Shown here in pieces: positions 6,611-7,740 of a stretch of DNA of 64,000 bases. Every line of letters starts with the position of its first letter. Within the stretch, counting starts at the first letter, position 1. The notes under the pieces were generated by a model that was not told the DNA's origin, made no database searches, and saw only the letters and a list, made by a program, of their open reading frames with translations. Made by a program: the position numbers and the translations under genes. Origin of the DNA: Bacteroidaceae bacterium (lineage in GTDB: Bacteria; Bacteroidota; Bacteroidia; Bacteroidales; Barnesiellaceae_A); NCBI GenBank assembly GCA_017481745.1, contig JAFUOV010000016.1:1-64000 (forward strand). Direction: 5' to 3'.

Positions 6611-6932
6611 GACAAAGTAGCAACAAAACTACGTCGAAGACGTTAATCAGTAACAAGTTATGAGGCACTATGATATAAACACAAAATGTCAACCTCCTAA
6701 AGCAAAGCAGCAACAAAACTACGTCGAAGACGTAGAACAAGGTTAACCCCACGATTACGCACTGTCGTGCTTCATCGTGGGGTACATAACAACATCACAC
6801 GATCGATACGTCGAAGACGTTTCATTAATATACAAGTACAACATCTTCGATGTAGATATACCGAAGACTCAGCCTACCCCACGTTTCGCTTCGCTCAACG
6901 TGGGGTTAACACAGTATAACGTCTTCGACGTT
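6611..6932. repeat. REP-like palindrome cluster beside a RAYT gene
   Basis: Five short hairpins share one core. ACGTC-GAA-GACGT occurs at 6631-6643, 6721-6733 and 6808-6820; a variant ACATC-TTC-GATGT at 6841-6853; and the inverse orientation AACGTC-TTC-GACGTT at 6918-6932. The first two sit at the ends of nearly identical 33-bp direct repeats (6611-6643, 6701-6733). Two longer hairpins alternate with them: CCCCACGAT (6747-6755) with ATCGTGGGG (6774-6782), holding an inner GCAC/GTGC helix, and CCCCACGTT (6877-6885) with AACGTGGGG (6897-6905). The set fills the gene-free gap up to about 140 bp before the transposase start at 7070, the arrangement of REP/BIME elements next to their RAYT. Confidence 0.75.
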
Positions 6933-7040
6933 ACACTCTGAAATTTAAGCCTTATATAGTGATACAATCACAACACAACCAATTTTAAGTCTTTCAACAA
7001 AACAACACCTCTGACAATATACATTATTAAAAAGTTTAAC

Positions 7041-7048
7041 TACATTTG
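7041..7048 (+). promoter_or_regulatory. -7 element (TACATTTG) before the RAYT gene
   Basis: TACATTTG lies 22 bp before the ATG at 7070. It also argues against the longer frame opening at 7046, whose first codons would lie inside the promoter. No convincing -33 box is seen. Confidence 0.5.
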
Positions 7049-7069
7049 CAGTATAACAAATATAAACTT

Positions 7070-7513
7070 ATGAGTTATACTGTATCCTTATTTCACATAG
7101 TGATTGGTACTCACCAACGCAAAATGAGCATCAACGAAAAACACAAAACAGAGTTATACAAATACATTTGGGGAATTATTGAAAAATGTAATTGTAAATT
7201 AATTTGTATTAATGGCATTCCTGACCATATACATTTATTGGTTGACCTCAACTCTACTATTAGTATTGCTCAACTCGTAAGAGATATAAAGAGGTCTTCA
7301 AGTTTATGGATTAAATCATCAGAATATTTTCCACTATTCGATGGTTGGGGAAAAGAATATGCAGCATTTTCTTGTAGTAAAAGTATGAGTGAGCAAGTGC
7401 AAAATTATATCAAAAATCAAGAAGAGCATCATAGCAAGGAAGAATTTATATCGGAATATCAGCGACTTATCATAAAACACGGATTATGCTACCACAAATC
7501 CTCCGAGGAATAA
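7070..7513 (+). CDS. REP-associated tyrosine transposase-like / IS200-type HUH endonuclease (RAYT)
   Basis: 147 residues, the usual size for TnpA-REP/IS200 proteins. These are Y1 HUH endonucleases that cut and rejoin single-stranded DNA at hairpins. The metal-binding HUH is in PDHIHLLVDL. The catalytic Tyr is in VQNYIKNQEEHH, with the conserved Gln one helical turn later and the family's HH pair. LVRDIKRSSSLWI is typical of the Bacteroidetes branch. The ATG at 7070 is chosen because TACATTTG precedes it. There is no TnpB, no second transposase and no obvious IS termini. The palindrome cluster lies immediately upstream, so a domesticated RAYT with its REP set is the best reading; a solitary IS200 is the alternative. 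Its AT-rich composition differs from that of the neighbouring genes. Confidence 0.85.
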   Translation: MSYTVSLFHIVIGTHQRKMSINEKHKTELYKYIWGIIEKCNCKLICINGIPDHIHLLVDLNSTISIAQLVRDIKRSSSLWIKSSEYFPLFDGWGKEYAAFSCSKSMSEQVQNYIKNQEEHHSKEEFISEYQRLIIKHGLCYHKSSEE

Positions 7514-7583
7514 TGAACCACACAATATAGTTATCATCCAAACAGTGTCACAAAAAAATATTTTGCACAAAATTGCGATATAA

Positions 7584-7654: not shown

Positions 7655-7740
<86 letters not shown>

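Follow-up and report, generated by a model that had tools for sequence, protein, structure and literature searches.

A single-copy TnpA_Y1 subclass 1.2 gene of Bacteroidales and its inverted two-hairpin repeats: a probable REPtron-like unit outside the RAYT class

Among the closest described systems to the locus presented here is TnpA_Y1 subclass 1.2 of Quentin et al. (2018), characterised as low-copy, of ~148 aa and mostly devoid of IS ends, its REP column reading "no" (PMC6006769). The locus shares with this subclass the Y---Q--HH and PDHIH motifs, the protein length, the low copy number, the occurrence in Bacteroidetes and the lack of IS ends, but differs in that repeat units flank most of the members examined here, whereas the survey gives no REP (PMC6006769). 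The automatic REP search of that survey relied on GT[AG]G within 0–2 nt on the 5′ side of a stem that is 7 bp or longer (PMC6006769); the present units do not satisfy this rule and would therefore have been missed by the published search. With the "REPtrons" (RAYT with REP, BIME and REPIN) the locus has in common a Y1 enzyme present in one copy, an inverted arrangement of palindromes next to its gene, inverted pairs dispersed between genes (in congeners) and palindromes that are specific to each gene and go with its enzyme (as in PMC2817692). However, the enzyme described here belongs to class 1 and is devoid of Y-x-x-NP, the copy numbers are low, and the unit consists of two hairpins, the GNA-triloop hairpin and a second one, with NTAR between them, while in the RAYT systems a GTAG foot is located on one hairpin.

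Three other groups are to be compared. The REPs of subclass 2.6, with their "atypical secondary structures" (PMC6006769), similarly occur in Bacteroidetes, lack GTAG and have copies elsewhere in the genome, but their enzyme is of a different class, carrying YIH[QN]NP in ~179 aa. The CGTC-tagged palindromes of Di Nocera et al. (2013; PMC3733652) are short, contain CGTC and were reported in some Bacteroidetes; in these palindromes CGTC is an unpaired end tag, the loops are of 4–5 nt and no transposase is associated, whereas the window hairpins have CGTC inside the stem, a 3-nt loop and an associated gene. Because of the differing tag position and loop size, identity with the CGTC repeats was rejected. 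The IS200/IS605 elements (IS608, ISDra2) share the Y1/HUH fold, the catalytic residues and the association with hairpins, and differ from this locus, in which there are no multiple copies, no tnpB, and the flanking hairpins are inverted. A "RayT" of Chryseobacterium, found in a resistance-gene neighbourhood with no repeats described (PMC11194056), was set aside. The open literature searched yielded no account of subclass 1.2 repeats, and the novelty is provisional.

The window, i.e., the whole stretch of DNA analysed, comprises 64,000 nt of a gut Bacteroidaceae bacterium (GCA_017481745.1, contig JAFUOV010000016.1, positions 1–64,000 of the forward strand). Its genome is designated G000; G001, G003, G004, G005 and G007 are among the congeners compared. 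The Y1 protein (Table 1) matches Pfam Y1_Tnp (E = 3.5e-23) and passes the NCBIfam IS200 model (60.6 bits, cutoff 55). The initial annotation had called the enzyme "RAYT-type", which was not borne out: the REP-transposase model (NF047646, REP_Tyr) gives 28.6 bits versus a cutoff of 80, the RAYT motif Y-x-x-NP is absent around the catalytic tyrosine, and YIKNQEEHH found in its place constitutes, together with PDHIH, the DH[IV]H and Y---Q--HH signature of subclass 1.2. No GTAG or GTGG immediately precedes the palindrome on its 5′ side; the window has TTAA at the second hairpin's foot, and the family NTAR. HUH, Y113, Q117, H120 and H121 do not vary among nine aligned sequences, and the expected catalytic residues are intact. 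The AlphaFold model (pLDDT 84) has a high Foldseek rmsd, and its fold assignment is based on the VIA-align Z, which is 13–14 for IS200-type enzymes (~14 for IS608 and ISDra2 TnpA) versus 10.9 for the RAYT 4er8. The gene is represented by one copy in the window's genome and by 0–1 copies per congener genome, and no tnpB-size ORF was found beside it. With one copy and 147 aa it agrees with the low copy number and length of the subclass. By the tests applied, the protein is of the TnpA_Y1 subclass 1.2 type and lies outside RAYT/TnpA_REP.

All seven hairpins previously described before this solitary gene were recovered, an arrangement matched in 0 of 100 shuffles. Pattern searches of the window give four exact copies of ACGTCGAAGACGT in the cluster (6631, 6721 and 6808 on the + strand, 6919 on the − strand) and an ATGT variant of the short hairpin at 6841 on the − strand; when up to two mismatches are allowed, 1.2 matches are expected over the whole window, and six were reached in none of 100 shuffles. 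For the CCCCACG..CGTGGGG hairpins, of which there are two (6747–6782 and 6877–6905), the expectation is 0 (0/100 shuffles). The 64-kb window contains only three GNA/TNC-triloop hairpins whose stem is 7 bp or longer, two of them inside the cluster. Folding as single-stranded DNA gives z = −5.6 to −6.6 for both units and z = −8.0 for a 223-nt block. The first two short hairpins do lie in direct repeats, measured as 31 bp at 6613 and 6703 with 97% identity. The Rfam search returned a tRNA-Ser match only, the rest being sub-threshold noise.

As the dispersed copies in relatives reveal, the cluster is one symmetrical 215-bp element (6719–6933) composed of two inverted two-hairpin units, overlooked in the initial annotation (Table 1). 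Its order and spacing are repeated in dispersed copies of G004 and G003, and the similarity between copies is bounded by the outer GNA hairpins. Each unit carries both hairpins, which contradicts the earlier suggestion that the two hairpin classes were alternate substrates or two ends; the inverted, "BIME-like" pairing proposed at the same time is real, with units on both strands. The 90-bp tandem stretch is present in two copies in the window and in three in G004.

Table 1. Features of the repeat cluster and the Y1 gene (window coordinates), with a second enzyme–hairpin pair
Feature	Position	Strand	Description
Complete inverted element	6719..6933	.	Unit 1 (+), internal GNA hairpins 6808 + / 6841 −, unit 2 (−)
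Unit 1	6719-6783	+	GAA-triloop hairpin, 7 nt, TTAA, CCCCACG hairpin
Unit 1 short hairpin	6719..6735	+	7-bp stem, GAA triloop (CTACGTC GAA GACGTAG)
Unit 1 TTAA tag	6743..6746	+	+8 from short stem, directly 5′ of second hairpin
Unit 1 long CCCCACG hairpin	6747..6782	+	Interior exactly inverted in congener G004
Internal short GNA hairpin	6808..6820	+	5-bp stem
Internal short GNA hairpin	6841..6853	−	Variant ACATCGAAGATGT
Unit 2	6933-6875	−	Plan as in unit 1; 7–8 nt between short stem and TTAA
Unit 2 long CCCCACG hairpin	6877..6905	−	Pattern search and folding
Unit 2 TTAA tag	6906..6909	−	+8/+9 from short stem
Unit 2 short hairpin	6917..6933	−	7-bp stem, GAA triloop on − strand
Extra tandem copy of leftmost 90 bp	6613..6702	+	Adds one short hairpin (6631-6643)
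Y1/HUH transposase-like gene	7070..7513	+	ATG at 7070; 147 aa; TnpA_Y1 subclass 1.2 type
Second enzyme–hairpin pair (G207 enzyme)			Hairpin GCGTGTCGAAGACACGC

Statements on the window's own genome come from pattern searches of its draft assembly, ~91% complete. In these searches the core was confined to the cluster, with no dispersed copies; a one-mismatch core at G000 C1:38776 was dropped, the reversed control pattern giving six such matches. Across nine genomes of the genus, ACGTCGAAGACGT is represented by 4 copies in G000, 19 in G003 and 24 in G004; it is absent from the remaining six, namely G005, whose subclass 1.2 gene carries a different hairpin, and five genomes that lack such a gene. 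The CCCCACG hairpins are distributed similarly (G000 2, G003 13, G004 10), plus one stray in G001. Relative to the window's gene, the Y1 gene is 100% identical in G004 and 40% in G003; in the latter, the dispersed ACGTCGAAGACGT repeats are without a close gene, the sole (40%) match having a different hairpin. The initial annotation had named copies elsewhere in the genome as its check and their lack as a refutation: the own genome, taken alone, would refute the REP-like interpretation, and the dispersed copies of the relatives overturn this refutation. The core is also absent from the five congeners without the gene, and a REP-like pairing with a solitary Y1 enzyme in Bacteroidales is supported by copies dispersed in relatives that carry such a gene. 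The earlier interpretation is thus partly supported, being right in kind and wrong in enzyme class.

In 20 examined regions of G003 and G004, the dispersed copies lie between long ORFs, often downstream of genes, and some are overlapped only by short, probably spurious ORFs. The 215-bp plan is followed in full by three copies in G004 and in part by three others there; in G003 six copies follow it in full, the G003 linkers having CGAA or GGAA in place of NTAR. G004 also has shorter inverted pairs of two GNA hairpins ~37 nt apart. As in REPINs, the palindromes form dispersed inverted pairs, with the dispersal seen in the congeners and not in the window's genome. A comparison of the G004 copies with G000, G001, G003 and G005 gave no clean empty site because the intergenic stretches of these species do not align, the flanking genes aligning at ~72–88%. 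Several G003 and G004 arrays sit at contig ends. At the corresponding tRNA-Ser locus of G003 (C42, L030) there is a hairpin array without a transposase gene, the contig ending inside the array. Other intergenic repeats are abundant in regions of G000 (L129) and G004 (L110), for example CCCCCAACG..TTGGGGG hairpins and TTTAGAGTTTAGTGTTTATAG-like stretches.

To what extent this plan recurs in the family is evident from a protein search that matched 169 of 295 Bacteroidales genomes; the family set comprises 120 loci with 119 distinct proteins, all 119 having the subclass 1.2 Y signature. The flanks were searched within 350 bp for a GNA triloop on a stem of at least 5 bp, with the expectation taken from dinucleotide-preserving shuffles. 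A GNA-loop hairpin was found upstream in 82/115 genes (3.8 expected), and the TNC-loop form, i.e., the GNA hairpin inverted, downstream in 70/112 (3.7 expected), while about a third of the genes are without a GNA hairpin in the searched flank. Hairpins with a 3-nt loop and a 6-bp stem are present in 67/117 and 60/114 near flanks versus 7/110 and 14/107 distant ones. An NTAR (ATAA, ATAG, TTAA or GTAG) stands at +8/+9 past the GNA stem in 53/100 units (~7 expected) and is followed by a second hairpin, often preceded by CC, in 37/108 (3% in shuffled sequences); the window's own units, which lie over 300 bp away from the start codon or point the other way, are excluded from these two tallies. The repeat unit consists of a 6–7 bp GNA-triloop hairpin, 7–8 nt, NTAR (TTAA here) and often a second CC..GG hairpin. 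The units occur in inverted pairs, commonly one per gene side (27 loci have inverted units on both sides); in the window both are upstream of the gene, none being found downstream. The published "no REP" is a description of subclass 1.2, not a definition, and it is contradicted by the repeat units adjoining most members.

A second unit sub-type was observed in the flanks of L223, L224, L176 and L017, where GTAG or ATAG is followed by AAA without a CC hairpin, in several cases with another GNA hairpin ~45 nt on. Outside Bacteroidales, a subclass 1.2 gene of Ignavibacteria (L020) has inverted GCA-loop hairpins GTCCGCCGCAGGCGGAC on both sides.

Hairpins located directly upstream of a gene might also be regulatory, representing 5′-leader structures that curb transposase expression, or terminators, with the dispersed copies being passive recombination duplicates. 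Hairpins in the mRNA leader do repress IS200-type transposases, and dispersed copies are frequently located downstream of genes. Nevertheless, we regard this explanation as quite unlikely because in many genomes the same hairpins occur inverted downstream of the gene, the GNA loop is present on one DNA strand only, and multi-part dispersed copies with defined ends are left unexplained.

The stem sequences are different from gene to gene and correlate with protein identity (Mantel r 0.32, 0/5000 permutations), although such a correlation would also be given by co-inheritance alone. The hairpin GTGTCGAAGACAC of G207 and G127 is present in 3 of 27 genomes: G207 has four copies (three around the gene), G127 four (two near the gene) and G224 one. 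The hairpin GCTACGAAGTAGC of G201 is present in 2 of 27, with six copies in G201 (one at the gene) and one in G151 (at its gene). A copy adjoins the gene in four of the five genomes carrying either hairpin. CGTCTGAAAGACG belongs to the genes of G005 and G003, which are 61% identical to each other; it is represented by 4 copies in G005, all in the array before the gene, and by 15 in G003, two of which flank the gene in inverted orientation. It was also found where no cognate subclass 1.2 gene is detectable, with 14 copies in G007 and five singles in G000 (L156, L159). The enzyme–hairpin link is strong, not strict.

Such "orphan" repeats in G007 and the window's genome, as well as the G003 array without a gene, could suggest that some other enzyme, or replication slippage, mobilises the repeats, the Y1 gene being merely caught beside them. 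This we find most improbable, given that the GNA plan with gene-specific stems recurs beside most of the 119 distinct genes and that the orphans could be explained otherwise: gene loss after the spread or gaps in draft assemblies, with arrays at contig ends, are possible reasons.

The history of the window's cassette is suggested by comparison with G004, which has the Y1 gene in the same position, with the same tRNA-Ser (7655–7740 in the window) following it. When 6613–7560 of the window is compared with L012 of G004, the coding DNA is 100% identical over its full length and the cluster 96–98%; beyond the cassette, which ends close to the tRNA-Ser, the neighbouring gene is 74–83% identical and the next genes 67–83%. 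The cassette thus seems to be recently acquired in the window's genome, with a recent exchange as the simplest reading of these identities, and such an exchange would explain why G000 has the gene without dispersed copies of its repeat. An assembly chimera is unlikely, the two copies differing in spacers, repeat number and an inverted hairpin. At 6747–6782 (L012: 231–266), G000 and G004 have the inside of the long hairpin as exact reverse complements of each other, with unchanged surroundings, which represents a hairpin "flip" between the two species.

A cassette that is 96–100% identical in two species, with a less similar next gene, has moved or been exchanged recently, which is also in favour of an IS200/IS605 insertion sequence or its non-autonomous derivative, the hairpins being subterminal ends that move with tnpA; the NCBIfam label and the fold, closest to IS608 and ISDra2 TnpA, agree with this. 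The exchange, however, occurred at the same locus in both species, for which homologous recombination suffices and was probably the route. An insertion sequence is also at odds with the single gene copy per genome (0–1 in the congeners), with the lack of an adjacent tnpB-size ORF and with the dispersal of the unit without the gene. The ends of IS200/IS605 elements are read on one strand, while across the family the hairpins on the two sides of the gene are inverted relative to each other, with GNA loops upstream and TNC loops downstream. We consider this explanation improbable.

It is likely, in our opinion, that the locus represents a REPtron-like unit composed of a single-copy, non-IS subclass 1.2 Y1 endonuclease and its own family of palindromic repeats. 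This is indicated by the anatomy of the element, its recurrence throughout the family, the intergenic dispersal in relatives and the joint inheritance of enzyme and stem sequence. From what RAYT and IS200 enzymes do (PMC8266576, PMC2817692), we infer by analogy binding, cutting, a role of the tag and mobility of the repeats. The enzyme would recognise and bind the GNA hairpin on exposed single-stranded DNA, and the presence of the triloop on one strand only would give the choice of strand. The GNA triloop is unusually stable in DNA. The NTAR tag, which occupies the second hairpin's foot as GTAG does in REPs, may guide cleavage, with nicking presumably performed through Tyr113. Cutting and rejoining could then spread or rearrange the repeats, resulting in inverted pairs and dispersed copies.

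A broader suggestion, possible if slightly on the doubtful side, is that subclass 1.2 proteins form a separate, Bacteroidota-centred REPtron lineage, which arose from IS200 transposases independently of the RAYTs and reads a GNA triloop with an NTAR guide. If so, the REP-like "domestication" of these enzymes happened at least twice. Since the predicted substrates are short oligonucleotides, the claim is directly testable in vitro. For an uncharacterised class of Y1 enzymes, a DNA substrate that obeys a clear structural rule is thereby predicted, and the enzyme–repeat partnership of the RAYTs would be extended to an IS200-like branch, making the rules of recognition comparable between the two lineages.
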